Positions 9,251 through 60,772 of a stretch of 64,000 nt of DNA are shown in pieces. The stretch spans positions 62,001 through 126,000 of the forward strand of contig NZ_BJDK01000004.1 of assembly GCF_005405105.1 (NCBI RefSeq), written 5' to 3'. The first letter of the stretch is position 1, and each line of letters begins with the position of its first letter. The notes beneath the pieces are model-generated. The model saw only the letters and a program-made list of their open reading frames with translations. It was not told where the DNA came from and ran no database searches. Origin of the DNA: Lactiplantibacillus dongliensis. Lineage in GTDB: Bacteria; Bacillota; Bacilli; Lactobacillales; Lactobacillaceae. The translations under genes and the position numbers were made by a program.

Positions 9251-9390
9251 GCGGGCTGGATGATGCTCAGCGGTGTCGTTTGACTTAGGTTGGATGATTT
9301 TTCCAGCCTTAGTCAAAGCCCGGCTTGGAAGACCGCTCCTTGGCTTCCAAACGTGGCCACCACGTTCCAGCATCAATCCAGCCCAACCGA
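9251..9390 (+). repeat. Family B cloverleaf repeat, copy B1
   Basis: The outer stem GCTGGATGATGCT pairs with AGCATCAATCCAGC. Inner arms are TTTGACTTAGG..CCTTAGTCAAA and TTGGAAGACC..GGCTTCCAA. It shares CAGCGGTGTCG and ACGTGGCCACCACGTTCCAGC-like blocks with the other B copies. It follows C1 by less than 100 bp. Confidence 0.88.
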
Positions 9391-9410
9391 AGCGAAAAGT
9401 ATCGCCTATC

Positions 9411-9440
9411 AAAAAAACGATACCCTCATTGGCATCGTCT
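9411..9440 (-). terminator. ezrA terminator
   Basis: On the minus strand ACGATGCC-AATGA-GGGTATCGT is followed by seven Ts, ten bases after the ezrA stop codon. Confidence 0.85.
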
Positions 9441-9450
9441 TTCATTGATA

Positions 9451-11160
9451 CTATTCAGCATCGTCTTTCTTCTGACTATAATAACTGTCTTCAATCCGCT
9501 TGTAAGACCCCGGATTGACTTTATCGACCGCCGACGCAATCACTTCTAAGCTGCGTGCATAATCGAAATCCTCATTGAACAAGCGTTGTGCTTCTTCGCT
9601 GGCTGCCTGTACGTCATCATGACTGTTCTTATAACGGTTAGCATACTGCAACAGTTGTTCCGACAAGACCGCCGCATCTGTCAAATCAGTCGTCTTTTCC
9701 TTTAACGTGGCCATATCAGCTTGAATCACAATAAGCTGCTTGGTGATATCTTCCATATTAATCACTAGCTTATTAATATCATGATCCAACTTTTCGATTT
9801 CTTTACCGACCACCATAAAGTAATCCAAATAGTCTTTCGGCAACCCTGGTAAGTTCATATTCTCAACTTGCCGCTTAATCGCATGGATCTCAAAGTCAAA
9901 ACGTTGCAACGTATCATGGGCTTTGGATTCTTCCGCTGCCAAGCCGGCCACACCGTCATTAATTCCGACCTGTTCTTCTTCGATCCCTTTTAATTGCTTA
10001 TCTTGGTCTTCATAATGGGCCGCAATCTGACTGTAAACGGCTTGTTTGCTCGTCAAGGCGGTCATATCGGCTTGATAGATATCTTGAATATTCTTTAATT
10101 GCTCATTGAGTTCACGAGTCCGCTCAATCTCGTGGTTATTCAAAGTATAACTCTGGGCCAACCGATCTAGTTCCACTTGTAACCGGTGATTTTGGTTCAT
10201 CGCATGCGTTAAGAACTTGCTGATTTCGTCTTGGCGCGCATCCACAACTTCTTTAGCATCGATTTCTGCTTGCATCACGTCATATAAGTGGTCAATCCGC
10301 TTTTCAATCGCGTGATTGCCATTTTGGGCTGCTTCAACTTTTAAGTTACCTAACAAGTCTTTATTATCGTCGATGGCTTTGTTCAATGACTGAATCTCCG
10401 GTTCAATCGTAGCCACTTCAAAGTGAAAATGCCGGTCAATCAACTGATGATACCCAGATTGTAGTTCGGTTAATTGGTCTGGAAAACCACTCACCAAATC
10501 TTTATAAATTGGTGGAATCTGATCAATATCGGTCTCTAAAGCACTCGTATCATGCCGGAGCTGATCCAAAACTTTTTCCGCCGCATCATGGTCACCAGAC
10601 TTCGCTAATTGGGAGAAGTTATCAAAGTCACTCTCTAAGTTAGCTAAGCGGTCTTCCAACTTATCGATACTGGGGCCAAATGAAAAGTTTTGTGATAACA
10701 AGACTTTGCGTAAATCTTGATATTTCTTTTCCAAACTAGCCACGGCCGCGCGATGGGCTTGGTCCGCATCGTCTAAAGCATCTAATCCCGCTTGGACATC
10801 CCCAAGTTGGGCTTTGATTGCCGCTAACTTGGTATCCACTTTTTTTAAGTTCTGCCGCGCATCGACAAACTTAACACCATGCGCCTGTTGTTTGATCTGC
10901 GTCAGTTGTTCACTAACCGCGGGTAATTGCTCGTTTTGAATGGCCTTGGCCGTCGCCTGCAAGTCTTCGAACTTGGCTAACGAACCACCGGTCAAACTTA
11001 ATTGTTCAATTTTTTCAAAATCAGTCGCCTGAGCTTGATCGACAATGGCTTGTTGGCGGTCCGCTAATTGCTGAACCTGCTTATCTATGTATTTTTGGAA
11101 GCCAATAATCGCAATGTAAATCACGACTGCGACGATCACAATACCGATTGCTACTTGCAT
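9451..11160 (-). CDS. ezrA: Septation ring formation regulator EzrA
   Basis: Membrane-anchored regulator of FtsZ ring formation in Firmicutes. The 569 residues have one N-terminal transmembrane segment (about 4-22, QVAIGIVIVAVVIYIAIIGF), a short basic stretch, and then almost entirely heptad-rich coiled coil, the layout and length of EzrA. The ATG at 11160 follows AAGGGG with good spacing. A -10 element with extended TGC lies upstream, and a terminator follows the stop. It appears to be a single-gene unit. Confidence 0.94.
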   Translation of the reverse strand: MQVAIGIVIVAVVIYIAIIGFQKYIDKQVQQLADRQQAIVDQAQATDFEKIEQLSLTGGSLAKFEDLQATAKAIQNEQLPAVSEQLTQIKQQAHGVKFVDARQNLKKVDTKLAAIKAQLGDVQAGLDALDDADQAHRAAVASLEKKYQDLRKVLLSQNFSFGPSIDKLEDRLANLESDFDNFSQLAKSGDHDAAEKVLDQLRHDTSALETDIDQIPPIYKDLVSGFPDQLTELQSGYHQLIDRHFHFEVATIEPEIQSLNKAIDDNKDLLGNLKVEAAQNGNHAIEKRIDHLYDVMQAEIDAKEVVDARQDEISKFLTHAMNQNHRLQVELDRLAQSYTLNNHEIERTRELNEQLKNIQDIYQADMTALTSKQAVYSQIAAHYEDQDKQLKGIEEEQVGINDGVAGLAAEESKAHDTLQRFDFEIHAIKRQVENMNLPGLPKDYLDYFMVVGKEIEKLDHDINKLVINMEDITKQLIVIQADMATLKEKTTDLTDAAVLSEQLLQYANRYKNSHDDVQAASEEAQRLFNEDFDYARSLEVIASAVDKVNPGSYKRIEDSYYSQKKDDAE

Positions 11161-11269
11161 ACGAATACCCCTTACTTATTAAATTGCTTATTTTTTTGCT
11201 AGTGACAGCGATACCTTGCCGAACCGCTGCCTTGCTTTTTCTTGAATTTCCAATTAAAATCTAACCTAA

Positions 11270-11278
11270 ATTATAGCA
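11270..11278 (-). promoter_or_regulatory. Extended -10 promoter element for ezrA
   Basis: On the minus strand TGCTATAAT, about 110 bp upstream of ezrA. No good -35 hexamer is seen, which is usual for extended -10 promoters. Confidence 0.6.
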
Positions 11279-11332
11279 TAGTCGCAATTATCAGACAGTA
11301 TCAATTTGCTAACTTTCTAGGAGGAATTTCAG

Positions 11333-11794
11333 ATGTCAGAGACCCAAACTTCACTGATGAACCAGCAACTCGACGCCCTACTCTATCAAGAAACTAATTT
11401 GGTAGCTAACTTAGCAAACGCTAGTGCGCTGATCAACGATACATATACCGACCTTAACTGGGCTGGTTTTTATTTATATAATTCAGACACCCAAGAACTC
11501 GACTTGGGCCCCTTCCAAGGCAAAGTCGCCTGCATGCACATTAAGGTCGGCGCCGGCGTTGTCGGGACCGCCTTTAAAGATCAACAAGCGCATCGTGTGG
11601 CTAATGTTCATGAATTTCCTGGACACATCGCTTGTGACAGTGCCAGCAATTCCGAAATCGTTGTGCCTTTAACTAAGGGCGACCGTCAAATCGGGGTACT
11701 GGATATTGATTCCCCATCATTAGATCGCTTTACAGCTGAAAATGAAGCCGAATTAGTCGAATTTGCGAAAATTCTCGTGCAACACATTGACTAA
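11333..11794 (+). CDS. msrC: Free methionine-(R)-sulfoxide reductase (GAF domain)
   Basis: Reduces free methionine-R-sulfoxide. The 153 residues form one GAF domain with the family motifs DLNWAGFYLY, GKVACMHIKVGAGVVGTA and HEFPGHIACDSASNSEIVVPL. Family members usually have three cysteines; here Cys67 and Cys101 are kept. The middle one, normally in a GVCGTA motif, is Val77. The enzyme can still work if the first and last cysteines form the catalytic pair, as I recall being proposed for the E. coli and Neisseria enzymes. The ATG follows AGGAGG by eight bases. No terminator separates it from rpsD, which has its own leader. Confidence 0.88.
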   Translation: MSETQTSLMNQQLDALLYQETNLVANLANASALINDTYTDLNWAGFYLYNSDTQELDLGPFQGKVACMHIKVGAGVVGTAFKDQQAHRVANVHEFPGHIACDSASNSEIVVPLTKGDRQIGVLDIDSPSLDRFTAENEAELVEFAKILVQHID

Positions 11795-11835
11795 ACTAGG
11801 TTTTCCATGCTATGCTACTCTTTGTGTAAAATAAT

Positions 11836-11950
11836 GCAGCAGTGAGTGGGTAAGCTCGTCAACAGATTGGTGCCACTTATTGGTCAGTTAGTAACCTGCG
11901 GCTGCAATGGCGAACCCTGCAGTTCAATCTGAACGAATATCGAACTCACA
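11836..11950 (+). promoter_or_regulatory. Structured leader upstream of rpsD (candidate S4 autoregulatory site)
   Basis: Between the upstream gene and rpsD, nested complementary segments can pair: GTGAGT (11842-11847) with ACTCAC (11944-11949), and CAGATTG (11863-11869) with CAATCTG (11925-11931). GCAG/CTGC pairs lie inside. S4 represses its own mRNA in Bacillus and in E. coli by binding structured leaders, so this is a reasonable site for S4, but binding here is inferred. A possible -10, TAAAAT at 11827-11832, lies just upstream. Confidence 0.55.
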
Positions 11951-11994
11951 TCGGATTATTTTACTCCAACTAAAATTATTGGAGGATACAACAT

Positions 11995-12603
11995 ATGTCT
12001 CGTTATACAGGTCCAAGTTGGAAGATCTCCCGTCGTTTGGGAATGTCTCTTTCAGGTACTGGTAAAGAATTAGCTCGTCGTCCTTATGCACCTGGTGATC
12101 ATGGTCAAGGTCGTCACAGTAAGCTTTCAGAATACGGTACACAATTACGCGAAAAGCAAAAGTTACGGATGATGTACGGTTTAACTGAACGTCAATTCTC
12201 TAACTTATTTATCAAAGCTGGTAAAATCCGCGAAGGTAAGCATGGTGTTAACTTCATGATCTTACTCGAACGTCGTTTAGACAACATGGTTTACCGTTTA
12301 GGTTTAGCGACTACTCGTCGTCAAGCTCGTCAATTGGTAAACCATGGCCACATCACTGTTGATGGCAAACGTGTTGACATTCCTTCATACGAAGTTAAAG
12401 TCGGCCAAGTTATCTCAGTTCGTGACAAGTCTAAGAAGTTAGTCGTTATCACCGGCGCTGTTGAAGCCGTTGTTTCACGTCCTAACTTCGTTCAATTCGA
12501 TGCCGACAAACTTGAAGGCTCATTGATTCGCTTACCAGAACGTGAAGAACTTGAAGCAGATATCGACGAATCACTTATCGTTGAATACTACAACAAACTT
12601 TAA
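11995..12603 (+). CDS. rpsD: 30S ribosomal protein S4
   Basis: Primary 16S rRNA-binding protein that starts assembly of the small-subunit body. The 202 residues begin [20 protein letters not shown]. The S4 RNA-binding domain is visible at [20 protein letters not shown] and [19 protein letters not shown]. It is the cysteine-free form; the four N-terminal zinc-binding cysteines of the C+ paralogues are absent. A strong GGAGG precedes the ATG, and a terminator follows. The gene is monocistronic, outside the ribosomal operon, as in other Firmicutes. Confidence 0.98.
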
Positions 12604-12615
12604 TTTCCGGTTTAT

Positions 12616-12650
12616 TAAAAAGTCGCTTGCATTTGCAGGCGGCTTTTTTT
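12616..12650 (+). terminator. rpsD terminator
   Basis: AAAAAGTCGCTTGC-ATTT-GCAGGCGGC followed by seven Ts, immediately after the rpsD stop. Confidence 0.88.
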
Positions 12651-12735
12651 GTACGCTCAATTTGATTAATCAATCTGGAATCGGCTCAGCTTACCAGCCG
12701 ATTCCAGCTTTCTTATTTTAATCCCAACCCCACTA

Positions 12736-13356
12736 CTAATCTTCATTCAACCAGGCGGCCATAATTGGTTGGTAAATTGGCATTAGCTTTTCAAACGTCG
12801 CAAAAATATACGCATTTAATGCCTTGGGGTTCGCAAATAACTCATCATCTGCCATAACCGCGCGCCCCGCCACCAGCTCGCTATGCTTGTACTTGTCAAA
12901 CTTTGTCATCGCCGCCTCAATATTGGCCAGCGTCGCAGGTTCAGTCTGTGGTACCCCATGATTGTTGCTGATCACAAAATCTGCTGGTAACTGCTGATAC
13001 AGCCGCTTCAATTCAACTGGTGACACCGCAGCTTGTACCGCGGCTTTACTTTCATCCAAAATATCGAAATAAATAAACAAGCGATCCGGCCAAAAGCCGA
13101 GTTCAAAGTGTGGTAAGGCTTTGTAACTACGGGCGTTCTCACTAAACGCCACCCAGGTATCTACCGGTGGATTCTTAAAACGCCGCAAATGTTTCGCCAC
13201 ATGCGCATAGAATTGATGGGCCGGTGGTGTACTCAATTGATCAATGATGGTCGGCGCAATGGCGTCAAACTTCGGATCAATCACCGTTTTGATCAAGTGC
13301 ATCCGCCCAGCTAACGTTGGCTCATTAAAAATCTCAAAATCACTTTGCGTAAACAT
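12736..13356 (-). CDS. DUF1054 (UPF0637, YktB-like) protein
   Basis: Soluble protein of 206 residues with no signal peptide or membrane segment. It starts MFTQSDFEIFNEPTLAGRM and contains the family stretches FDAIAPTIIDQL, LPHFELGFWPDRLFIYFDI and KYKHSELVAGRAV. The family is widespread in Bacillales and Lactobacillales and has no proven function. AAGGA lies nine bases before the ATG. It is encoded just downstream of the frameshifted secreted-protein gene, with a 22-bp gap. Confidence 0.85.
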   Translation of the reverse strand: MFTQSDFEIFNEPTLAGRMHLIKTVIDPKFDAIAPTIIDQLSTPPAHQFYAHVAKHLRRFKNPPVDTWVAFSENARSYKALPHFELGFWPDRLFIYFDILDESKAAVQAAVSPVELKRLYQQLPADFVISNNHGVPQTEPATLANIEAAMTKFDKYKHSELVAGRAVMADDELFANPKALNAYIFATFEKLMPIYQPIMAAWLNED

Positions 13357-13378
13357 CCCGTCACGTCCTTATCCTAAA

Positions 13379-13685
13379 TTATCGTTTGAAAATCTTAGCG
13401 CCATAGTTCACCTGCGCATAATAGACCTTAGCACTACTCTTCTTCACTTTACTGAAACGCCATGTATATGTTCCCACACCACGCATATGCAGCCGCAAGA
13501 TATTCTTCTTAAACGTCGTGCGTTCATGGAAGCCCCCTTCCGTTCCAGAAGCCGTGTAGTACCAAGTATGCCGCCGAATCGTCTTTGGTAGATACGTCGT
13601 CTTGGCATTAGCGGTAGCCGTTGACCAGCCTAGGCCCACCACCTAAACTCAATAAAGCCAGTAGCACCCAAATTTGCTTTTTCAT
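13379..13685 (-). pseudogene. Frameshifted small secreted protein gene
   Basis: The ATG at 13685, after GAGAGGGACG, begins MKKQIWVLLALLSL, a typical signal-peptide start. That frame leaves the rest of the protein at the GGTGGTGGG run (13643-13635) and meets a stop soon after. A +1 frame from about 13642 continues as VVGLGWSTATANAKTTYLPK, which supplies the expected A-x-A cleavage site (ANA), and reads on for about 75 residues to the stop at 13379 (ending YGAKIFKR). Joining the frames gives a plausible secreted protein of about 100 residues. The second frame alone would have to start at a GTG with a stop codon directly before it. A single-base indel, or a sequencing error, is the simplest reading. 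Confidence 0.7.
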
Positions 13686-13854
13686 TTTACCACGTCCCTC
13701 TCCGTTCAATTAACATGCCTCAAGTATAGATGATTCCTCACTTACTGACCAGTTGTTAAACAAAATTATCAGGGTGGGATTGCGCAGGACTTTCATCGCC
13801 TTTCCACTGAGAACATGCTACAATTAAGTGATTACCTGAGAAAGGATGTTTTCA

Positions 13855-14316
13855 ATGGCTGACACAGAAAAGCAACCCGTTGATCGCCTACAAACTGCCA
13901 TGCATGGGACGCCTAAGTTGCATCCCGACGAGCAGCGCAAGTATCTCGGCACCTTTCGTGAACGGGTCGAAGTTGCCGTGACCGTCTATCAGATCAAACG
14001 CCACCACTACGTCGATGAGCTGAATCGCGCGTTTGCAGCGCATCCAGATTACCGCTTACTCATCAACGGCAATTTGGACGAAGATATTCTCGGCCCGTAC
14101 ATGGCGGCGGTCGCTAAAGCGGGCGTCCAATTCACTTTAAAGACCGATAACATGTATCACACTGGTGATGACGACTATGCGCTGGTCTTTGCGACCAACA
14201 CGGCGATTAATCAAGACGTGATTGATATCGAAAAGCGGTACCAACCAACTGTTGACGCTACCGCCAAGCCTAAGAAGTCAGGCGGTTTGTTTGATAAATT
14301 AAAAAAATTATTCTAA
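13855..14316 (+). CDS. DUF1694 (YueI-like) protein
   Basis: Soluble protein of 153 residues with the family signatures RVEVAVTVYQIKR, LLINGNLDEDILGPYM and DYALVFATNTAIN. YueI-like proteins have no assigned function. Two in-frame ATGs exist. The second, at 13855, has AAAGGA eight bases upstream and is preferred; the first, at 13846, overlaps the ribosome-binding site. The C-terminal lysine-rich tail (KPKKSGGLFDKLKKLF) may form an amphipathic helix. It is convergent with gshF across family B copy B2. Confidence 0.85.
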   Translation: MADTEKQPVDRLQTAMHGTPKLHPDEQRKYLGTFRERVEVAVTVYQIKRHHYVDELNRAFAAHPDYRLLINGNLDEDILGPYMAAVAKAGVQFTLKTDNMYHTGDDDYALVFATNTAINQDVIDIEKRYQPTVDATAKPKKSGGLFDKLKKLF

Positions 14317-14344
14317 CTACACTTGGTGCTAGCTGGTTTGAATT

Positions 14345-14496
14345 GCCACTCTGGTTGGGCCAGAATCGGCTGGAACGTGGTGGCCACGTTTTCGAGCCAT
14401 AGTGCGGTCTCGAAAGCCAGGCTTTATCTAAGTCGGAAAATCACCGACCAAGATAAACGACACCACTGAGCCAATTCTGGCCCGCCCGCCGTTAAC
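14345..14496 (-). repeat. Family B cloverleaf repeat, copy B2
   Basis: Inverted relative to B1. The outer stem runs from GGCCAGAATCGGCT to AGCCAATTCTGGCC. Inner arms are TTTCGAGCC..GGTCTCGAAA and TTTATCT..AAGTCGG..CCGAC..AGATAAA. Its CCACTCTGGTTGG flank matches the flanks of B6, B7 and B8. It occupies the convergent gap between the yueI-like gene and gshF. Confidence 0.9.
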
Positions 14497-14553
14497 TAAC
14501 GGCTATTAAAAAATTAACGATTGATTATTTCCAGTTCAGTCATTTAGCCAAAA

Positions 14554-14603
14554 GGTTAGTTCCTAAAATGGCCCATGGCATTCCAGCGTTTTAGGAACTA
14601 ACC
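14554..14603. repeat. 15-bp perfect inverted repeat
   Basis: GGTTAGTTCCTAAAA (14554-14568) is exactly complementary to TTTTAGGAACTAACC (14589-14603) around a 20-base loop. There is no T-run, so it is not a typical terminator. It sits between repeat B2 and the gshF terminator. Function unknown. Confidence 0.8.
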
Positions 14604-14644
14604 GGCAGGCCGCAATTTCAACTAACACTAAGCATACGCTAACT

Positions 14645-14687
14645 AAAAAAGTTCTCTTAACCTTAAAACGGTCAAGCGAACTTTTTT
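14645..14687. terminator. Terminator downstream of gshF
   Basis: AAAAAAGTTC and GAACTTTTTT form the outer stem, with TTAACC/GGTCAA inside. The A- and T-runs on both sides suggest it works in both directions. Confidence 0.82.
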
Positions 14688-14695
14688 AGATTACC

Positions 14696-17101: not shown

Positions 17102-17138
17102 AGTTGGGACTAGTTTTGCAAGGGAGGAATTCAAAAAC

Positions 17139-18713: not shown

Positions 18714-18716
18714 GTA

Positions 18717-18840
18717 GAGTGTGAGGCAAAGCGGGTTGGGGTCGAGCATTGCCTAGCTAAGTCAACGACTCGGTGGGCTTTCCGAGTGGGTGACTTAGCG
18801 TAGCAAGCGGAGTCCCCAGCTTTGCCGAACACGTTTCAGC
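18717..18840 (+). repeat. Family A structured repeat, copy A2
   Basis: Stems: GGCAAAGC (18725-18732) with GCTTTGCC (18819-18826), TGGGG with CCCCA, GCTAAGTCA (18756-18764) with TGACTTAGC (18791-18799), and ACTCGG with CCGAGT. It begins three bases after the T-run of the 6S terminator. Confidence 0.92.
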
Positions 18841-35024: not shown

Positions 35025-35090
35025 GCTTACTAACTCCATTCTGAGATGTATTTAATCAGTCCGTTTTAAATGAGTCGTTGCTTGTCGCCG

Positions 35091-35232
35091 ACCGGTTGGC
35101 CCCAGCAATGCTGGAACGTGGTGGGCACGTTTTTGAGCCAAAGTACGGTCTCAAAAGCCGGCCTTGACCTAACCTGAGCAACCCACTCAGCTAAGGTCAA
35201 TTTCACCACTGAGCATTGCTGGGACCGCCCTC
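35091..35232 (-). repeat. Family B cloverleaf repeat, copy B3
   Basis: Outer stem CCCAGCAATGCT with AGCATTGCTGGG; arms TTTTGAGCC..GGTCTCAAAA and TTGACC..GCTAAGGTCAA. It forms an inverted pair with B4. Confidence 0.9.
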
Positions 35233-35269
35233 ACGGCTAAAAATCAATTGATTCTTAACTAGCCGTGAG
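35230..35269. repeat. Hairpin linking repeats B3 and B4
   Basis: CTCACGGCTA (35230-35239) and TAGCCGTGAG (35260-35269) form a perfect 10-bp stem exactly between the two inverted B copies. Confidence 0.75.
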
Positions 35270-35404
35270 GTCATCGAAAAAAATACTCAGCCGTGTCGTT
35301 GGTCTTGGTACGGTGGTCTACCGGACCTAGACCAAGGTCAGTTTTGAAGACCGCTGTTTGGCTTCAAAATGACCCACCGCGTTCCAGTATTTTTTTCGAT
35401 GACC
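35269..35404 (+). repeat. Family B cloverleaf repeat, copy B4
   Basis: The outer stem is a perfect 19-bp match: GGTCATCGAAAAAAATACT (35269-35287) and its complement (35386-35404). Inner arms are TTGGTCTTGGT..ACCAAG and TTTTGAAGACC..GGCTTCAAAA. The outer stem shares no sequence with the other copies. Confidence 0.9.
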
Positions 35405-35512
35405 GGTAGGCGAAAAACAACCATCCAATCCCACTGATTTAACCCTCAATAGCGTACCTTGCAACTGCTACAAAGTCAAGCAGGGCGCGGTCTCATTAGA
35501 TTTTAATGTATT

Positions 35513-38163: not shown

Positions 38164-38467
38164 AAAAAAACTGCTCGTCGTATTAACAATAGTTTGCACT
38201 ATCATCAATAGGACGAGCAGCTTGGTCTCGCGGTACCACCTATCTTTACAAGCTGTTCACACAACTTGTCTCAAGAGTTAGTTATAACTCCGCACGATAA
38301 TGGGTGCACCCAAAACTGGCTAACTTACGCTCACCAATTTACATTGATTCAAGACCATCTTCTGTCGTTCGTTTAATCTCATTCCACCAACCTGAGACTC
38401 TCTAAATAAACAAAACCACATACTCATCTTTTCAAAATGACATTTTTTAATGATTTATTAATGTGTC
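38164..38467 (-). promoter_or_regulatory. T-box riboswitch leader of metNIQ (Met specifier)
   Basis: The T-box core AGGTGGTACCGCG is at 38241-38229 on the minus strand. The terminator (ACTGCTCGTCGTATT..GGACGAGCAG region) lies at 38164-38220 with a T-run. In the Stem I 3' side the layout GAAG-ATG-GTCTTGAA parallels the valS leader, giving specifier AUG at 38358-38356. Uncharged tRNA-Met should relieve termination, so methionine uptake rises on starvation. Confidence 0.92.
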
Positions 38468-41765: not shown

Positions 41766-41794
41766 ATTATAGCATATTCAATAATCGATTAGAA
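41766..41794 (-). promoter_or_regulatory. mreB promoter
   Basis: On the minus strand TGCTATAAT (extended -10, hexamer 41771-41766) with a weak TTCTAA 17 bp upstream. Confidence 0.7.
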
Positions 41795-41811
41795 CATGCG
41801 TCATTGCCGCT

Positions 41812-41958
41812 TCGGTTGAGCTGGATTGACGCTGGAACGTGGTGGCCGCGTTTGTAAGCCAAAGTGCGGTCTCACAAACCGAGCTTTCACTAAGCCGGAG
41901 AAATCACCGGCCAAGTGAAACGACACCACTGAGCATCATCCAGCCCAACCTGCGCTAA
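41812..41958 (-). repeat. Family B cloverleaf repeat, copy B5
   Basis: Outer stem GCTGGATTGACGCT with GAGCATCATCCAGC (one bulge); arms TTTGTAAGCC..GGTCTCACAAA and TTTCACT..GCCGG..CCGGC..AGTGAAA. It faces copy B6 about 110 bp away. Confidence 0.9.
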
Positions 41959-42067
41959 CTAGCAGCCACGGTAGTTACTGTCTAACCAAAACGAGCCTGT
42001 TAATAACTATTTAACCGATACTCGGTACTGGTTAAAAATAAGCAGCTCAATATTTACAAACCGGTAA

Positions 42068-42217
42068 TTAACGCCGGGCGGACCAGAATTGGCTCAGTGG
42101 TGTCATTTATCTTAGTCGTGCTTTTGCGACTTAGATAAAGCCCGGCTTTCGAGACCGCCCTGTGGCTCGAAAACGCGGCCACCACGTTCCAGCCGATTCT
42201 GGGCCAACCAGAGTGGT
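42068..42217 (+). repeat. Family B cloverleaf repeat, copy B6
   Basis: Outer stem CCAGAATTGGCT with AGCCGATTCTGG; arms TTTATCTTAGTCG..CGACTTAGATAAA and TTTCGAGACC..GGCTCGAAA. TTAACGCCGGGCGG on the left and CCAACCAGAGTGG on the right match B7 and B8. Confidence 0.92.
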
Positions 42218-42259
42218 AATCCTCATCTAACTAACACCAAACATGATCAACCTAACGCA

Positions 42260-44505: not shown

Positions 44506-44786
44506 TAGCTCAACTCCTTGTTGGTTTCCTAATCATCATACCATAATTAGAATGCCGAGAAATATTACATTTTACAATTTCGTTACATTTTAAGCATTTC
44601 GTGGTTCGCTAATGGTTAGTTAAGTGAGAACTTAGTGATAGCTAGGCATTCAGTTGATTCACTGGATTAATTAGTTGACCGGTCTAATGATTGAAAATCA
44701 GCTTGATAATAACTTGTAAGTTTCATTTGTAAAAGTTTTGGCTTAGGATTTAGTTCAAGTCATTAAACCTTAGTCTTGCTGAAGTT

Positions 44787-44955
44787 GATCGTCTCCGCTG
44801 ACTAGGACGATCGCGGTGGGGCAGACCTGCAGCCACACCCCGGTCTGCAGGGCGCTTCAAAGCCGAAAACCACGTCTTTAAAGTCGGCCCAGACACTAAG
44901 ACGGGAAAACCACCCGCCCAACTGTCTCGTCACGGCGTTCATCCTAGTCGCTGCG
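44787..44955 (+). repeat. Family C cloverleaf repeat, copy C2
   Basis: Outer stem GACTAGGA with TCCTAGTC; arms CTGCAGCC..GGTCTGCAG and CTTCAAAG..CTTTAAAG. A fourth arm is AGAC..AGACGGG..CCCGCC..GTCT. The unpaired blocks GCGGTGGGGCAGACC and TCGTCACGGCG are as in C1. The 240 bp between it and B7 hold nothing I can identify. Confidence 0.87.
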
Positions 44956-45197: not shown

Positions 45198-45350
45198 TTA
45201 ACGGCGGGCGGTCCAGAATTGGCTCAGTGGGGTCGTTTATCTTAGTCGTGGTTTTTGCGACTTAGATAAAGCCCGGCTTTCGAGACCATCCTGTGGCTCG
45301 AAAACATGGCCACCACGTTCCAGCCAATTATGGGCCAACCAGAGCGGCAG
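45198..45350 (+). repeat. Family B cloverleaf repeat, copy B7
   Basis: Outer stem CCAGAATTGGCT with AGCCAATTATGG; arms TTTATCTTAGTCG..CGACTTAGATAAA and TTTCGAGACC..GGCTCGAAA. It is nearly identical to B6 in the left half. Confidence 0.92.
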
Positions 45351-45387: not shown

Positions 45388-45557
45388 GGGGCCAGCCAGG
45401 GATGACCGCCGTGTCGAGTCAGTTAGCTGGGGTGGTTTTCCACAGCTTACTGACTGGGCCGACTTTACAGACGTGGGCTAGCGGCTGTAAAGCGCCCTGA
45501 AGACCGCTCCTAAGGCTTCAGGTCTGCCACCGCGGTCATCCCTGGCTGGCGGAGACG
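45388..45557 (-). repeat. Family C cloverleaf repeat, copy C3
   Basis: The outer stem is a perfect 19-bp match: GCCAGCCAGGGATGACCGC (45391-45409) with its complement (45532-45550). The arms CTGAAGACC..GGCTTCAG, CTTTACAG..CTGTAAAG and AGTCAGT..ACTGACT all differ in sequence from C1 and C2 but pair perfectly. Confidence 0.92.
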
Positions 45558-53715: not shown

Positions 53716-53749
53716 AGTGCACCCCTATCAAAAAAATTTATAAAAGAAA

Positions 53750-53845: not shown

Positions 53846-53874
53846 ATTAAAGGAACTGTTTGGTTGTTGAATTT

Positions 53875-53903
53875 AGAATACTCGTGTTAGTTGAGTTTGT
53901 CAA
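53875..53903 (-). promoter_or_regulatory. pyrP promoter
   Basis: On the minus strand TTGACA (53903-53898), 17-bp spacer, TATTCT (53880-53875). Repeat A3 begins two bases beyond the -35 hexamer. Confidence 0.88.
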
Positions 53904-53905
53904 CA

Positions 53906-54028
53906 GAGTGTGAGGTAAAGCGGGTTGGGGTCGAGCATTGCTTAGATAAGCCAATTACTCGGTGTTCTTCCGAGTGGTTGACTTATCGTAGCAAGCGGAG
54001 TCCCCAGCTTTGCCGAGCACGTTTCGGC
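53906..54028 (+). repeat. Family A structured repeat, copy A3 (first of three in tandem)
   Basis: GGTAAAGC..GCTTTGCC and TGGGG..CCCCA outer stems, GATAAG..CTTATC and ACTCGG..CCGAGT inner stem. The outer half matches A2; the inner stem differs with compensating changes. Confidence 0.92.
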
Positions 54029-54030
54029 AA

Positions 54031-54153
54031 GAGTGTGAGGTTCGACGGGTTGCTCCTGAGCATTGCCTAGTCAGTCAATTATGCCGGTGCTTTTCCGGTA
54101 TGGTTGACTGGCGTAGCAAGCGCAGGGAGCAGTCGGGCCGAGCACGTTTCAAC
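54031..54153 (+). repeat. Family A structured repeat, copy A4
   Basis: Outer stem GGTTCGAC (54039-54046) with GTCGGGCC (54132-54139) and TGCTCC with GGAGCA. Inner stem CAGTCAA (54072-54078) with TTGACTG (54104-54110) and GCCGG with CCGGT. Both stems are unlike those of A3 yet complementary. Confidence 0.92.
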
Positions 54154-54154
54154 A

Positions 54155-54276
54155 GAGTGTGAACGAGGGCGGGAGTTGATGAGCATTGCCTAGCTATCAC
54201 AATTACTCGGTGCCCTTCCGAGTGGTTGTGATGGCGTAGCAAGCGGAGTCAACTGCCCGAGTGAACACGTTTCAGC
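54155..54276 (+). repeat. Family A structured repeat, copy A5
   Basis: Outer stem CGGG..AGTTGA with TCAACT..CCCG; inner stem ATCACAA..TTGTGAT and ACTCGG..CCGAGT. The GAGCATTGCCTAG, GGCGTAGCAAGCGGAGT and GAACACGTTTC blocks are conserved. Confidence 0.92.
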
Positions 54277-54719
54277 TCGCTAAATAAAAGGGCACTATCA
54301 CCATTACTTTGCTAAGTCGTAGCAATCTTTGATAATCCTCATTTCTAATCGAGCCAGCATCACCCCCAACAACAACCCAACTTTAATAACCACAAACCAG
54401 TTTTCAGCTTAGTTCGTCTCAATAACCATTATTAATTATCACGACATAAGTAATCCACCCAAGAATAATACCAACACTAACTGATCACTCGCCTTACTCC
54501 GGTCACCGACATTTTTAACCTTTTTCTACCATAATATGCGGTGCAACCGGGTGGCTCTGCATTGGCCGCTAGTTAACCCAAAATGCAAGTGAGCCTCAAT
54601 AACGCTTTTTAGGTTACGTTTCTATCACCATCTAAAACCGTCACCCTATTTAAAATAACTGTTCACAAGATTAGGTTTAAATGCGTAAATCCATTAAATA
54701 GCCCTCGACCTTAAGTCGC
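54277..54719. other. Gene-free region between family A tandem repeats and upp terminator
   Basis: AT-rich stretch of about 440 bp with no supported reading frame, no clear promoter pair and no long inverted repeat. Confidence 0.6.
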
Positions 54720-54720
54720 A

Positions 54721-54763
54721 AAAAAAAACGCCAATTAGCAACTTACTTGCTAACCAGCGTTTA
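54721..54763 (-). terminator. upp operon terminator
   Basis: AAACGC..TTAGCAA-CTTAC-TTGCTAA..GCGTTT, with a long A-run on the left that becomes the T-run of minus-strand transcripts. Confidence 0.88.
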
Positions 54764-54779
54764 AATTTAGCGTTACGTT

Positions 54780-55409
54780 TTACTTCGTCCCGAATAATCG
54801 GTCGCCAGCATCGCCCAAACCAGGCACGATGTAGCCATCTTCATTCAAATGGTCGTCCAATGCGGCCGTGTAAATGTCGATGTCTGGGTGAGCTTCTTGA
54901 AGAGCTTTAACCCCTTCAGGTGCAGCTACTAAGCACATGAACTTAATGTTGCTTGCGCCCCGCTTCTTCAACATGTCCATTGCCATAATTGCTGAACCAC
55001 CAGTAGCTAACATTGGATCAACAACAAATAATTGCCGTTGTGAAATGTCACTTGGTAATTTGACAAAATATTCAACAGGCTTCAGCGTCTTTTCGTCACG
55101 GTACATCCCCACATGCCCAACTTTAGCAGCTGGAATCATGTTTAAGACACCATCGACCATGCCAAGTCCGGCCCGTAAGATTGGCACAATGGCCACTTTC
55201 TTACCGGCTAGCGTCTTTTGCGTGGTCTTAGTAATTGGGGTTTCAATTTCAATATCTTTTAATGGCATATCGCGTGATACTTCGTATGCCATCAAAGTTG
55301 ATATTTCATTGACCATTTCCCGAAAGACTTTTGTGCCACATTCTTTTTCCCGAATGATGGTTAACTTATGCTGAATGAGCGGATGATTCAAAACCTCAAA
55401 CTTACCCAT
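54780..55409 (-). CDS. upp: Uracil phosphoribosyltransferase
   Basis: Salvages uracil to UMP with PRPP. It has 209 residues from [20 protein letters not shown], the normal start; a GTG four codons earlier touches the AAGGAG ribosome-binding site. The PRPP loop [17 protein letters not shown] and the uracil-binding [17 protein letters not shown] end are intact. Last gene of the tdk-prfA-prmC-sua5-glyA-upp run. Confidence 0.97.
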
Positions 55410-55488
55410 GTTACTTTGCACGCTCCTTAGTGATTTCTTTCTATTGTAGCTAACTTGGAGCGAAAAAACCAGACCTGTCGCGAATTAG

Positions 55489-56727
55489 TTAGTCAACATC
55501 GATCGGATGCTTGGCAGTTAAGGCCATCGCCTTAGCCTTGACATCATCGAGATTGCCCGCGTTTTCAGGGTCTTGTAAGGCTTGCAAAATTAATTTGGCA
55601 ACTTCGGTCGCATCGGCTTCATTAAACCCACGCGTAGTAATTGCCGGCGTTCCTAATCGAATCCCAGAGGTCTTAAAGGCACCTAACGTTTCATTAGGAA
55701 TCGCTTCTTTGTTGACGGTGATATAAACCGTATCTAATAAATCTTGGACTTGACGCCCATTTAAACCAGATTTAGTCACATCTAACGTCATCAAATGGTT
55801 ATCGGTCCCACCAGAAATGACCCGTACTAAGTCGGATTCATTAAAGACAGCGGCCATAGCCTGTGCGTTCTTGATAATTTGTTGCGCATAAACTTTAAAT
55901 TCCGGTTGTAAGTCTTCGCCTAACGCGATAGCCTTACCCGCAATGACGTGGTCTAAAGGTCCGCCTTGGTTACCAGGGAAAACAGCGGAATTGATCTTCT
56001 TGCCATATTCAGCCTTAGCCAAAATCAAACCGCCACGGGGGCCCCGCAATGTTTTATGCGTGGTTGTCGTAACCACATCCGCATATGGAACAGGACTTGG
56101 ATGCAATCCAGCGGCAACTAACCCAGCGATGTGAGCCATATCTACCATTAACATGGCGCCCACGGCATCGGCAATCTCACGGAATTTAGCAAAGTCAATA
56201 ATGCGACTGTAGGCTGAAGCCCCAGCAACGATTAACTTCGGCTTGAAAGCTTGGGCTTGCGCCAAAATCGCGTCATAATCCAATTCTTCAGTTTCGGGAT
56301 TTAAACCATATCCTTGAAAATCATACAGTTTACCTGAAAAGTTGACACTTGAGCCGTGAGTTAAATGGCCCCCGGCATCTAGAGACATTCCTAAAACCCG
56401 ATCGCCGGGCTGGATCAAAGCCATATACGCAGCGGCATTGGCTTGTGAACCGGAATGGGGTTGAACGTTGGCATATTCGGCACCAAATAATTCTTTGGCC
56501 CGTTCAATAGCTAAGGTTTCAACTTGGTCGATAAATTCATTACCACCGTAAAACCGATGGCCTGGATAACCTTCAGAATATTTATTGGTGAGGACACTGC
56601 CTTGAGCCGCCCGGACGCCTTTTGAGACGATGTTTTCAGACGCAATTAACTCAATGTTGTGTTGTTGACGAGCCTGTTCCTTACTAATTGCAGCCCAAAC
56701 TGCTGGATCTTGTTCTTGGTAATTCAT
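55489..56727 (-). CDS. glyA: Serine hydroxymethyltransferase
   Basis: PLP enzyme interconverting serine and glycine and charging tetrahydrofolate with one-carbon units. It has 412 residues from [13 protein letters not shown]; the ATG at 56727 has GGAGGAG upstream. The PLP lysine lies in [19 protein letters not shown]. It follows the sua5 gene and precedes upp. Confidence 0.97.
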
Positions 56728-56784
56728 GAATATTCTCCTCCATTTCGCAAGTGACAACTTTCGGGTTTTCCCGACTTGGCATTA

Positions 56785-57804
56785 TTATACCCTAAAATGT
56801 GTCTGACCGGCAGATTTATTTAATCGATTCATGTAAGCCGCACCAAGTCCGTAATTATCAAAGGCTTGAGCTAGAATATCCTTGATTGAAGTTTCCGTAT
56901 CGAAGTGCCGTAGTCCGGCAAATAATTCTCGACTTGCCGATTGAACGTCATTTCCTAACGAAAATCGTTCGCAATTTGCTGGTAGTTCGTTAGCTTTCAA
57001 AACAGCGTCGGTTGCCATCACGCCCATCGGTACCTGTTGCTGGGCGGCCCATTTCAAAGCTGCTGGCCAATCCGTCACCTGATCGACGATATAAACTTGC
57101 GCATCTGGCGCATAGTGTTTGTACTTCATGCCAGGGGCCTTGGGAACTTCTGTGGCACCAACATGATGCTGCTCAGTTAAGACCGGTTCGTCAATGACGG
57201 CTTCAATTGCTTCCGCCGTTACTGCCCCCGGCCGCAAGATCGCCGGTTGGTCACCAGATAAGTCTAAAACAGTGGATTCAACCCCAACCTTGGTGGCCCC
57301 ATCATCTAGAATCCCCGCAATCTTGCCGTCTAAATCATGTAAGACATGTTGCGCGGTCGTTGGACTCGGCTTGCCAGACGTATTCGCTGACGGCCCGACA
57401 ATCGGCGTTTTAGCCGCTTTAATCAGCGCAATCGTCGCAGCATTCGCGGGATTACGAAAGGCCGCAGTCGTTAAGCCCCCGGTAACTTCAGGCGCCAAGG
57501 CATCGGGCTTCAAATTAAAAATCATGGTTAATGGCCCTGGCCAGAAAGCTTTAATCAACCGTTTGGCATTAATCGACAATGGCTTGGCAAATCGTTCCAC
57601 CGTTGCGACATCGGCAACGTGGACAATCAACGGATTATCACTCGGACGACCCTTGGCTTGATAGACTTGCTTAACAGCCGCGACGTTTGTGGCATCGGCC
57701 CCTAAGCCGTAGACCGTTTCGGTCGGAAAAGCTACTAATTGACCGGCCGCAATCAGAGCAGCGGCCTGATCAACAGCACTTGGTTTAAAAACTTTAGTTT
57801 CCAT
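56785..57804 (-). CDS. sua5: L-threonylcarbamoyladenylate synthase (Sua5 type)
   Basis: Makes the threonylcarbamoyl-AMP used for t6A at tRNA position 37. The 339 residues comprise the YrdC domain (AFPTETVYGLGADATN, KGRPSDNPLIVHV, GPSANTSGKPSPT) and the C-terminal Sua5 domain (APGMKYKHYAPDAQVYIV). Placed after prmC, as in many Firmicutes. Confidence 0.95.
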   Translation of the reverse strand: METKVFKPSAVDQAAALIAAGQLVAFPTETVYGLGADATNVAAVKQVYQAKGRPSDNPLIVHVADVATVERFAKPLSINAKRLIKAFWPGPLTMIFNLKPDALAPEVTGGLTTAAFRNPANAATIALIKAAKTPIVGPSANTSGKPSPTTAQHVLHDLDGKIAGILDDGATKVGVESTVLDLSGDQPAILRPGAVTAEAIEAVIDEPVLTEQHHVGATEVPKAPGMKYKHYAPDAQVYIVDQVTDWPAALKWAAQQQVPMGVMATDAVLKANELPANCERFSLGNDVQSASRELFAGLRHFDTETSIKDILAQAFDNYGLGAAYMNRLNKSAGQTHFRV

Positions 57805-57832
57805 ATTAATCTCAATCCTTCTTTTTTAACAA

Positions 57833-58687
57833 TTATGGTAAGGCCACGCGTAACATCCGATCGTGCCCCGCCATATCCTGACGCAAGGTCACTTCAGCAG
57901 TTGGTAACGCTTGTTCAAATAGCCGTTTAACTGTTGGACCTTGCTGATACCCAAATTCCAAATACAACCGGCCCTGTGGCGCTAAATGGGCTGCCACGGT
58001 TTGAGCTAACTGCTCATAGATAGCTAAGCCTTGGTGGTCGGCAAACAACGCTTGTTTCGGCTCATAATCTAAAACGTTAGCATCCATGACGGCCGTTTCA
58101 CTCGTGGCAATATAAGGTGGATTGCTGACAATCACATCATACGACGTCGCCGGTAATCCGGCGAACAAATCGCTTTGGTAAAATGTCACGGGCAACTGTA
58201 ACTCCTGGGCGTTCTGTTTAGCCACCTGTAGCGCGGCCGCTGAGATATCACTGGCAGTCAGTTGCCACGCTGGTCGGGCCGTTTGCAAGGCTAAGGCAAT
58301 GGCTCCAGAACCGGTCCCGATATCTAAGACGGTTAAGGCTGGCTCGGCATAATCAGTTAAGATCCAATCAACTAGTTCTTCAGTTTCGACCCGTGGAATC
58401 AAGACGGCCGGATCAACGTGCAAGTCAAGGCCATAAAACGGGGCTCGTCCTAAAACATACTGAGCCGGCTCACCAGCGACTACCCGTTGAATCGCCGCTT
58501 GGTACCTTTCCCAAATAGCGCGCGGTAACGGCTCACGATAATGAACCAATAACTGCGTTTGATCTAATTTCGTCAACCCTAATAACAAAAAACGGGCAGC
58601 ATCAGCGGGTTGGTTAGCTGTTGTTAGACAAAAAGAAGCCCATCGCTGGGCTTCAAAGTAAGTTGGCTGCTCCGGCAACTTAGTCAT
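57833..58687 (-). CDS. prmC: Peptide chain release factor N5-glutamine methyltransferase
   Basis: Methylates the glutamine of the GGQ loop in release factors. It has 284 residues with the SAM-binding [15 protein letters not shown] and the catalytic VSNPPYI. Its ATG overlaps the prfA stop by eight bases, so substrate and enzyme are translationally coupled. Confidence 0.96.
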
Positions 58688-59762
58688 TGGCTAAGCGCTC
58701 GATTTTCTTAGTTTGATCGGCTAAAATCAACGCGTCGATGATTTCATCTAATTCACCGTTCATAACCCGGTCTAACTTATTCAAAGTTAAGCCGATTCGA
58801 TGATCAGTCACCCGGTTTTGTGGGAAGTTATACGTCCGAATCCGTTCGGAACGATCCCCAGTCCCAACCGCGGACTTCCGTTCAGCATCGTATTGGTTTT
58901 GTTCCCGTGATTGATAATAGTCATAGACCCGTGCGCGTAAGATTTCCATCGCCTTGGCCCGGTTTTGTTGTTGTGACCGTTGATCTTGCATTGAGACCAC
59001 GATTCCAGTTGGCAAGTGGGTCATTCGAACCGCGGAAGAAGTCTTGTTAATATGCTGACCACCGGCACCAGATGACCGGAAGACATCGACCCGGATATCC
59101 TTTTGATCAAGCTTGATATCAACATCCTTGGCTTCAGGCATAATGCCGACTGTCGCTGTTGACGTATGCACCCGGCCAGCAGATTCCGTCACTGGCACCC
59201 GTTGAACTCGGTGAGCGCCACTTTCATACTTCAGCTTCGAGTAAACTTTTTTCCCGGAAATAATTAAGACGATTTCTTTAAAGCCCCCGACTTCGGTTTC
59301 GTTACGGTCAGCGACTTCAATATTCCAGCCTTGACGTTCCGCATACTTGGAGTACATGTTGAATAAGTCAGCGGCAAATAAACTGGCTTCGTCCCCACCA
59401 GCCGCGCCATGGATTTCCATGATGATATTTTTATCATCATTAGGATCTTGTGGCAACATTAATAAGGTGATTTCATGTTCCAATTGGTCTTTTTGGGCGT
59501 TTAAGTTCTTCAAATCGTCCTTGACCATTGCATTCATCTCATCGTCGAGCTTTTCACGCAATAATTCGTCATTTTCCTTAATTTGGTCAGTGACATCTTT
59601 ATATTGCTTGTACTTTTCAACGGTTTCGCGAATGCTGGCTTCTTCTTTCGACAGCTTTAAGAACCGTTGCGTATCCGCAATAACTTCGGGATCGCTCAAC
59701 AGTTCGCCGAGTTCTTCATACCGGTCGGCAACCGCTTGTAATTTATCAAAAAACTTATCCAT
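58680..59762 (-). CDS. prfA: Peptide chain release factor 1
   Basis: Recognises UAA and UAG. It has 360 residues with the GGQ loop in [18 protein letters not shown] and the anticodon-like PVTE motif in [12 protein letters not shown] (PxT type). Overlaps prmC. Confidence 0.97.
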
Positions 59763-59776
59763 ACGTGTTTAATTCC

Positions 59777-60355
59777 TCACTTTGTTAATTTCGGCGGACA
59801 GAAGTAATGACGACGACAAACTGGGAAGTATGCTTGATTCCCCCCAATTTGAACTTGGTCGCCTTCGTAAACCGGCTGACCATCGTTATACCGCAAGTTC
59901 ATAATCGCCTTTTTCCGGCAGAACCAGCAGATCGTCTTCATCTCTTCAATCTTATCCGCATACAACAACAGGTATTTACTACCTTCAAATAATTCATTCT
60001 TAAAATCATTCTTTAACCCAAACGTCATGACGGGGATCTGCAAGTCATCCACGATGTGCGCCAATTCTAAGATATGATGTTTCTTTAAAAATTGGGCTTC
60101 ATCAATTAAGATGCACGCCGCATCAGTATTGATTTTTTTAACGGTCTCTAAAATGTTCGTGTCATCATAAATCGTAACGGCATCCCGTTTTAGACCAATC
60201 CGACTGCTGACGACACCCACACCATCGCGGCTATCCAAACTACTGGTCATAATAATGATTGATTTATGTTGTTCCTCATAATTATGGGCGACTTTTAAAA
60301 TCTCAATCGACTTACCACTATTCATTGCGCCATATCGAAAAAATAACTGTGCCAA
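59777..60355 (-). CDS. tdk: Thymidine kinase
   Basis: Salvage kinase of 192 residues, type II: P-loop [19 protein letters not shown], and the C-terminal zinc-binding CWFC with a later C-x2-H-type pair (CRRHYFC). The start is TTG at 60355, ten bases after AAGGGG and one base after GAGGAG. First gene of the run that continues with prfA 14 bp downstream. Confidence 0.94.
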
Positions 60356-60389
60356 GCTCCTCGGTCCCCTTTTTTACACATTTCTAATT

Positions 60390-60395
60390 AATTAT
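60390..60395 (-). promoter_or_regulatory. -10 element of the tdk-prfA operon
   Basis: On the minus strand TATAAT, 35 bp before the tdk start; the -35 hexamer is poor. Confidence 0.5.
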
Positions 60396-60620
60396 AGCCG
60401 ATTTAAGCCCAAATTTCAGCATTCAGTTATGAAAACTGATTAATGATTTCATAAAACCGAGTTAAACCCAACAGTATCGCTTTTCTTTTAACCACGTTCA
60501 GTATAAAATACTTGGGAGTACTTGAACGCGTTTAGACTGCTTTTGGTGATCGTTAACTTGCCGCCTACCGGTTGGATCCTAAAACTATTGGAACCAATAC
60601 GGTTTCTAAATTCCAGTTAA

Positions 60621-60772
60621 TTAACGCCGGGCGGCCCAGAATTGGCTCAGTGGTGTCGTTTATTTTGGTCAGTGATTTTTCCGACCTAGATAAAGCCCGG
60701 CTTATGAGACCGCACTTTGGCTCATAAACGTGGCCACCACGTTCCAGCCGATTCTGGGCCAACCAGAGTGGC
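60621..60772 (+). repeat. Family B cloverleaf repeat, copy B8
   Basis: Outer stem CCAGAATTGGCT with AGCCGATTCTGG; arms TTTATTTTGGTC..GACCTAGATAAA and TTATGAGACC..GGCTCATAA. It lies in the divergent gap between tdk and murT, closer to murT. Confidence 0.92.

Follow-up and report, generated by a model that had tools for sequence, protein, structure and literature searches.

An IS982-ended mini-transposon with outward-facing structured modules accounts for many short repeats of Lactiplantibacillus dongliensis

Many of the short repeats in the genome of Lactiplantibacillus dongliensis are halves of one small mobile element. The repeats known as Family B, which the original prediction identified in a stretch of 64,000 nt (assembly GCF_005405105.1, contig NZ_BJDK01000004.1, positions 62,001-126,000 of the forward strand; hereafter the window), are the right half of a non-autonomous mini-transposon (MITE), which in its type-1 form is ~404 bp long. 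Each repeat is half of a longer element, with an inverted partner module upstream of many copies. Families B and C are not independent families, both being halves of one element kind. Our overall reading, to which we assign a probability of about 0.7, is that a MITE mobilised by IS982 carries outward-facing modules selected as a single-strand fold, likely RNA, that makes its insertions tolerable.

All eight predicted Family B copies (B1-B8) were recovered at their reported positions, and all eight are intergenic, lying between open reading frames (ORFs) of at least 120 aa. Their scores of 126-146 bits come from a covariance model that was built in part from window sequences and so indicate consistency and not proof. 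B8, a type-1 element with a shortened left half, occupies 60537-60791 (+) with inverted ends CTGCTTTTGGTGAT.. / ..ATCACCAGACGCAG, a TATAAAAT box (60502-60509) on one side and the murT start (60819) on the other, and its right module, a three-way-junction fold, spans 60630-60770 (+; 146.3 bits). B2, a type-1 element with part of the left half deleted, lies at 14318-14635 (-), with ends ATGCTTAGTGTTAGTTG / CTAGCACCAAGTGTA and a right module at 14347-14486 (-; 145.8 bits). B1 together with a Family C copy forms a type-2 element at 8996-9394 (+), whose left half starts at 8996 and whose right module is at 9250-9394 (+; 142.7 bits); no IS982-type ends were seen on it. B5 (41808-41949, -; 134.0 bits) and B6 (42077-42215, +; 141.6 bits) are two right-type modules placed back to back and facing outward (41783-42245, no strand assigned), with an IS982-type end on the B6 side only (CTAACACCAAACATG, 42231-42245). 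B3 (35088-35229, -; 137.5 bits) is accompanied by B4 (35270-35410, +; 126.3 bits), which is oriented outward relative to B3 and has left-type junctions and a unique basal stem, the 19 bp of which are exact as predicted (35269-35287 pairs with 35386-35404). The remaining copy, B7, has its right module at 45207-45346 (+; 129.8 bits). Additional weaker matches of the covariance model were found at 8999-9161 (-), 14555-14609 (+), 45390-45556 (+; 38.4 bits, E 1.6e-7), the last absent from the original prediction, and 44845-44935 (-; 24.7 bits), within a second Family C copy (44785-44935, -; repeat D9), a type-2 left-half module. Genome-wide, the 19-base junction block occurred 250 times at up to 3 mismatches and its reversed control 0 times, and a sequence model found 315 modules in the 2.35 Mb of this genome.

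Type-1 elements, modelled over 404 positions, consist of an IS982-type end, a left module, a 76-bp AT-rich spacer, a right module and a second IS982-type end, with ~40 nt of element end separating the fold from the flank. Terminal inverted repeats (ACGCTTGGTGCTAGTT..) are present at either end, and among 53 full elements the longest closed ORF is at most 65 aa, leaving none of the size of an IS982 transposase gene. In these respects type-1 elements have the features of MITEs. Among type-2-like copies, a left half is recognisable in 7/41, and conserved outer ends were seen by eye in 0 of those 7.

The type-1 ends match those of a 960-bp insertion sequence (IS) of the IS982 family, ends that are found in this genome too, and 17-18 terminal bases of the IS are identical to the type-1 consensus (18 bases at the left end; at the right end 16 bases counted from the C, or 17 including the A). 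Its transposase matches the IS982 transposase model NF033520 at 219.1 bits, against a cut-off of 130. Target duplications of at least 6 bp flank 20 of the 45 type-1 copies that retain both ends (300 shuffles gave a mean of 1.1 and at most 5) and are absent from the other 25; they are ~9 bp long, AT-rich and varied in sequence (TACTAGAAT, TATTTAGTT, AGAGAAATT and others). An earlier scan at fixed offsets, now superseded, had stayed near shuffled values (e.g. 0.548 vs 0.505 at 3 bases) because duplication lengths vary and bases of the ends were mixed in. The statement that neither a transposase nor a target duplication accompanies the repeats thus fails for type 1, with its IS982-type ends, duplications and matching transposase in trans; in copies of the B1/Family C type, neither IS982-type ends nor a target duplication was seen. 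The suggested comparison of empty and filled sites revealed empty sites of type-1 elements in relatives. B8 is missing from the murT site in all 11 relatives examined (10 named Lactiplantibacillus and one uncultured Lactobacillus), and for two insertions of the sister genome G017 (L318 and L327) the corresponding sites in our genome are cleanly empty. The B5/B6 pair is found in G017 and missing in G006 and G014, and the B1/Family C insertion is shared with G017 and not found in G006, G014, G011 and G020. Mobility of type 1 is supported by the shared ends, the target duplications, the empty sites and the presence/absence differences between sister species.

Each module comprises a basal stem, an internal loop (CTCA/GTTCC), a 6-bp helix and two arms, so that the predicted cloverleaf is confirmed as a structured unit, with a three-way junction in place of three equal arms. 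Complementary variation of the arms exceeds chance: among 47 modules, 29 of 50 pairs are compensated against 24.1 in shuffles, and 423 cells against 155.5, with a covariation of 0.495 vs 0.183 shuffled. Across 74 copies, 18 of 45 predicted pairs were altered on both sides with pairing kept. Junctions are nearly invariant while most stem pairs change, a contrast that was seen in part in a set picked by the covariance model. In a single copy tested, the DNA fold is very stable (z -10.7), and a second fold-stability test gave z -11.1. The prediction of an intergenic, structured family whose junctions are fixed and whose arms covary is hence borne out, and terminal inverted repeats alone are insufficient to account for it; of the competing idea that the copies are fragments of a mobile element whose stems merely reflect its ends, the first half proved correct and the second did not.

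The form in which this fold is selected was addressed by comparing G.U with A.C changes at paired sites between nearest copies, each module being read in its own direction. In the right module, changes from Watson-Crick pairs to G.U numbered 122 and those to A.C 61 (other mismatches 84, compensated doubles 70), and in the left module 63 and 33 (other mismatches 23, compensated doubles 22), while at unpaired sites C>T was not appreciably higher than G>A. Counted by pairs, G.U exceeds A.C only modestly (22 vs 18 in the right module; 26 vs 14 in the left, full fold). Orthologous copies shared with G017 (19/26 kept) gave 28 G.U against 13 A.C changes; left- and right-frame orthologue figures were kept apart and not summed, since both sets contain the same modules. 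The A.C changes and 6 other mismatches in these orthologues break pairs, and paired sites changed at 4.4% vs 6.6% for unpaired sites; as orthologous copies gather pair-breaking changes, selection on single copies is weak. The ~2:1 ratio of G.U over A.C points to a fold in one strand, probably RNA, rather than a DNA cruciform. In a cruciform both strands fold, every G.T has A.C as its counterpart on the opposite strand, and a 1:1 ratio is expected.

This strand signal bears on two other explanations. Modules that extrude as cruciforms or hairpins, to be bound or processed by the transposase or by a nucleoid protein of the host, would fit the very high stability of the DNA fold in the single copy examined, and the outward symmetry suits a two-ended DNA substrate; the ratio nevertheless rejects a cruciform as the sole selected form, and no module was matched at three IS loci of genome G013, even at E values up to 1, so that we regard a DNA-level function as quite unlikely. 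An ordinary IS982 MITE with a passive interior, whose stems look compensated through template switching in imperfect palindromes and have no function, would agree with the MITE features of type 1 and with the pair-breaking orthologous changes. Correction of quasi-palindromes is an established mutational process, but it restores perfect pairs and is strand-blind, predicting neither the excess of G.U over A.C nor near-invariant junctions amid changing stem pairs, and we consider this explanation unlikely.

Of 106 pairs of neighbouring modules within 400 bp, 95 are oriented outward. Relative to genes in tandem contexts, right modules have no orientation bias (24 same sense, 17 opposite), and 21 of 85 placed elements lie between convergent genes, compared with 147 of 945 background gaps. 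This slight excess is what bidirectional terminators or attenuators might produce, and one terminator-like site does occur antisense within the right module of the element L031, a second one in that stretch falling in the flank. B8 has 0 such sites, however, and shuffles average 1.0, giving no clear excess; an intrinsic terminator in the sense direction was rejected, there being none in the two elements scanned, and B8 sits on the sense strand between a promoter-like box and the murT start. A role in termination is therefore very improbable. No promoter emerged from pattern scans of two elements. Outward reading, towards the flank, together with the structure-specific strand signal, might also recall an undescribed RNA-guided system in which the modules are scaffolds like guide or omega RNAs and read into the flanking DNA. 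We find this proposal extremely improbable, as ~40 nt of element end separate the fold of type 1 from the flank and no use of RNA is known for IS982 enzymes.

The module extends well beyond this species. The covariance model detected it in 49 of 201 sampled Lactobacillaceae genomes, representing 11 of 40 genera, two species having at least 150 modules each, and the 23 matching genomes of an order-wide sample all belonged to the Lactobacillaceae. At most loci examined in other genera IS982 ends were not found, and elements of genome G068 have other imperfect ends by eye (GTTAGTGTAAAGTTTCTC/GTAAGTGTCAACTTTTTC). The fold is thus shared by elements with IS982 ends, elements with other imperfect ends and copies without recognised ends. 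Across many lactobacilli the shape of the module is better conserved than its sequence. As many copies outside this genus apparently have no IS982 ends, the module probably predates them.

Among known repeats, BOX and RUP of Streptococcus pneumoniae are modular or IS-mobilised structured repeats. MITECca01 of Cardinium cOegib resembles our element in being short (~240 bp), mostly intergenic and high-copy, with IS982-family ends and no transposase, while the accessible part of its description, from one strain only, mentions no conserved internal fold or paired modules (PMC9769881); here the module occurs across genera. In the Bacillus cereus group, bcr1-bcr3 are likewise MITE-like and intergenic (BCRs of 100-400 bp, often parts of UTRs; up to 130 copies of bcr1), but differ in a TTTAT motif, in confinement to that group and in that the available text describes no back-to-back modules (PMC3446304, PMC6542083). 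No such target motif was seen here, where duplicated targets vary. The conserved secondary structure of our module is paralleled by bcr10/bcr18, which are transcribed in 5' UTRs and have a predicted role as RNA (PMC3446304); these groups have about two copies per strain (PMC6542083) and are not, in the sections available, described as cargo of IS-ended elements, inside which type-1 modules lie. REP/BIME are also high-copy palindromic repeats, with reported units of 20-40 bp (PMC3733652). That REP/RAYT unit size is not matched here, where three-way junctions of ~140 nt sit in elements of ~400 bp that show target duplications. A known Rfam RNA was rejected, as the window's sole hits at gathering score are two T-box leaders that lie away from the copies, and 60520-60850 has no match up to E 5. 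A tRNA-like cloverleaf was dismissed with 0 ARAGORN tRNA genes in the window, as was a plasmid or phage origin, one full element having no match in a plasmid or phage collection. Our searches of open-licence papers brought up no Lactobacillaceae MITE of this kind.

In the IS982-mobilised reading that we favour, a transposase of the kind present in the genome would move the type-1 element in trans, duplicating ~9 bp of AT-rich target. Selection would favour a single-strand fold read outward from the element centre, most likely as RNA within transcripts crossing the element. Read-through of a paired element in either orientation would leave one sense module beside the downstream gene, and the fold may keep crossing transcripts harmless or stable, so that insertions in leaders and operons could be tolerated. 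A bolder view, which we advance tentatively and think somewhat doubtful, is that the module is a mobile structured-RNA family of Lactobacillaceae, riding on several unrelated transposon ends and persisting because its RNA acts; it is prompted by the recurrence of the fold under differing or no ends and by the strand-specific covariation. Outward facing nearly wherever paired, the modules would give every crossing transcript one sense copy, which might act on host RNA decay or translation, or on the spread of the element itself.

MITEs are usually regarded as empty shells of an IS. The shell described here holds a fold kept for its shape over many genera despite much turnover of stem sequence, and the strand signal of that fold points to RNA. 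This makes an old question testable, namely whether bacterial mini-transposons carry functional RNA cargo that aids their spread or spares the host. A family of food and gut bacteria also gains a large structured element without an Rfam match, which is useful for annotation and for interpreting leaders such as that of murT.

All eight copies of Family B, the ~150-bp repeats that the original prediction had located in the window, are present where it had placed them. In the 3.1-Mb genome of L. dongliensis, of which the window is a part, their junction block GTGGCCACCACGTTCCAGC is found at 250 sites when up to 3 mismatches are allowed, and the reversed block, searched as a control at the same tolerance, at 0. 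With up to 2 mismatches the block was found in 26 of the 199 genomes searched, L. dongliensis included, at 234 places in L. dongliensis, 287 in its sister species G017 (whose EzrA is 98% identical) and 98 in G020, and 5 of the other 20 genus members had none; the nearest matches of the L. dongliensis MurT are named Lactiplantibacillus records (up to 96%). A covariance model (R1) of the module, a ~140-nt fold with a three-way junction, matched 19 of 21 genomes of the genus (E 1e-3), so that a missing 19-mer does not imply a missing module, and it found at least 150 modules each in L. dongliensis and G017, 132 in G020 and 128 in G019. Matches were obtained in 49 of 201 genomes and 11 of 40 genera in a sample of the family (E 1e-6, at most 15 scored per genome), and in an order-wide sample, with at most 8 scored per genome and stricter filters, 23 of 395 genomes matched, all 23 within the family.

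Upstream of many Family B copies lies a second, inverted module, and the two form the halves of a ~404-bp element, ordered as end, left module, 76-bp spacer (62% A+T), right module and end. A model built from 51 full elements (404 positions), with the search space extended to 2.35 Mb, gave 353 non-overlapping matches there, comprising 63 full, 192 right-half, 76 left-half and 22 other. Family B is the right half of this element; Family C, another of the window's repeats, is the left half in a second subtype, that of copy B1, whose outer ends are unconserved. A recognisable left half was found in 7 of 41 copies resembling this type 2, and by eye no common outer end was seen in those 7. Paired modules face outward: among 315 modules in 2.35 Mb, neighbours at most 400 bp apart were outward in 95 of 106 cases, inward in 2 and tandem in 9, and in other species all 14 module pairs less than 700 bp apart, counted by hand in a model-selected table, were outward. 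By simple ORF calls the elements are mostly intergenic (5 of 91 overlap a predicted ORF), and the 85 placed elements lie in 48 tandem, 21 convergent and 16 divergent gene contexts, with a background of 609, 147 and 189, respectively; in tandem contexts the right module is in gene sense 24 times and in the opposite sense 17 times.

Type 1, the form of the element with ends ACGCTTGGTGCTAGTTG, is mobile and has IS982-type ends. Among the 45 copies that retain both ends, 20 carry a flanking duplication of at least 6 bp, against 1.1 on average and no more than 5 in 300 shuffles; these 20 duplications have a mean G+C of 20%, and 8 copies have one of at least 9 bp. The relative G013 has a 960-bp IS bounded by these same ends. 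Its 17–18 terminal bases are identical to the element consensus, and it encodes an IS982-family transposase (219 bits against a cut-off of 130); the module model gave no match on three loci of this IS. In the L. dongliensis genome no complete copy of the 960-bp IS was seen; such IS ends lie at seven of its contig ends, the pattern that a collapsed multicopy IS would leave. A diverged IS982-like copy of 980 bp also occurs there (C22:22563-23542), its transposase frame broken by a stop, with the TIR ACGCGTTGTGCTAGTT and a TAAGCCT repeat in its flanks.

Empty sites, whose comparison with filled ones in relatives the original prediction had proposed as a check, exist for B8, in the murT leader, and for two G017 insertions. 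B8 is absent at murT in all 11 relatives examined (10 named Lactiplantibacillus and one uncultured Lactobacillus), out of 80 murT loci fetched. For 21 of the best 30 G017 copies the corresponding place was located in the part of the L. dongliensis genome that was fetched; opposite L318 and L327 the L. dongliensis site is cleanly empty, with a single copy of the duplication, and opposite L309 it measures empty too, though the flanks are less clean. L. dongliensis and G017 share B1 and B5/B6, which are missing in G006 and G014. At three shared sites (L319, L304 and L300 in G017 vs C8:52084, C31:21437 and C3:25124 in L. dongliensis) the L. dongliensis element is very different, reading opposite to its sister's at L319 and L304; L300 seems alike by its differences. 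At L319 the rare GCATCAAGC variant occurs in the left end of both elements, which points to an element inverted on the spot and not to a new insertion.

The fold is conserved. From 86 junction-block copies, taken from 41 stretches (864 kb, the window among them) and retaining the 5' part in 76 cases, 74 were aligned after two incomplete copies were removed by hand, and RNAalifold returned a three-way junction of 45 pairs, 18 of them changed on both sides yet kept. One element folded as DNA (z -10.7) and one folded as RNA (z -11.1) both fell far under shuffles, and the left module, on its own strand, has the layout of the right one with different stems. In 47 modules of both kinds, picked without a fixed rule from 70 random draws out of 108, 96.0% of pair cells were paired vs 78.5 shuffled, 29 of 50 pairs changed on both sides, and covariation was 0.495, vs 0.183 after shuffling and no more than 0.075 after sliding. 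For 54 modules of 12 other species the values were 97.0% paired, 47 of 50 pairs, 0.669 vs 0.178, and G.U to A.C 133 to 14, in a set that the model both chose and aligned; this selection favours the structure and this count.

If the fold counted solely in double-stranded DNA, changes leading to G.U should be as frequent as those leading to A.C. A strand signal was observed: with copies found by sequence alone (length filter passed by 176 of 179 right and 70 of 72 left modules), nearest-neighbour comparison of 80 right pairs gave 122 WC-GU changes, 61 WC-AC, 84 other mismatches and 70 compensated double changes, and that of 28 left pairs, read on the element's other strand, 63, 33, 23 and 22, respectively. 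At unpaired positions no corresponding bias was seen (C>T at 0.038 vs G>A at 0.061 in right modules, both at 0.063 in left ones), and nearest copies differed at paired vs unpaired sites by 6.2 vs 10.2% and 6.1 vs 10.7%. Counted by pair in the full consensus fold, G.U exceeded A.C at 22 vs 18 right and 26 vs 14 left pairs, the excess thus being carried by a subset of pairs; in the shorter alifold structure it did so at 15 vs 5 in each. Of 26 orthologous pairs between L. dongliensis and G017, the 19 with up to 20 differences and more than 90 compared sites (right and left pooled) gave 28 G.U vs 13 A.C changes, six compensated doubles and six other mismatches, with differences at 4.4% of paired and 6.6% of unpaired sites. 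This excess of G.U over A.C points to the folded single strand, in the outward reading, having mattered, if weakly for any single copy.

Module loci were also searched for IS982-type ends with a 16-letter pattern (at most 2 mismatches). Both ends were found in G013 and G008, one at L358 of L. dongliensis, and ends at 5 of 8 G019 loci (two clear) and 1 of 8 in G020 (L328); none were found at 7 loci each of G068 and G014, at single loci of G010, G252, G229, G206, G012 and G009, or at L360 of G017, though other G017 copies bear them. The G068 loci (L330, L333, L337, L341, L345, L349 and L354) hold single-module elements, 89–97% identical to each other, with other imperfect inverted ends, GTTAGTGTAAAGTTTCTC/GTAAGTGTCAACTTTTTC by eye; these elements are possibly carried by another transposase. 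Seven G019 loci (L331, L338, L342, L346, L350, L353 and L357) have a long form with two outward modules ~360–450 bp apart, ~900 bp where measured (L346, L350, L353), and in some copies an IS982-like end, ACGCATTGTGCTAGTT or similar. More diverged module subtypes occur at 45390-45556 of the window and in the mreB region of G007 (L270); they seem to adjoin or replace type-1 elements, and the diversity of the family exceeds what a single model captures. Family A repeats (GAGCATTGCC..CACGTTTCAGC), at 18716-18840 and 53905-54276, with three copies next to one another, appear to be a further structured family whose end blocks are related. Two T-box leaders lie on the minus strand, at 1326-1673, where the leader overlaps a Family A-like stretch (repeat D8), and at 38206-38444.

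Type 1 shows every feature of a MITE that was testable here, and is therefore of a known kind, its transposition probably being driven by an IS982 enzyme. The available parts of the relevant papers describe an IS982-derived MITE in Cardinium (PMC9769881), for the B. cereus group the MITE-like bcr1-3 together with bcr10/18, which are structured (PMC3446304, PMC6542083), and a survey of stem-loop families with Lactobacillus johnsonii as its only Lactobacillus (PMC2267715); no published account of the present module or element family was found among the open-licence papers searched. The cargo is not of a known kind: a paired, outward-facing, shape-conserved module, present across a bacterial family. 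With modules placed outward, a transcript that enters a paired element, from whichever side, exits via a sense module immediately ahead of the next gene; in the murT leader, B8 illustrates a sense module ahead of a gene. The selected strand is probably RNA, and as a proposed role of this RNA the fold may shield or insulate transcripts that cross the elements.
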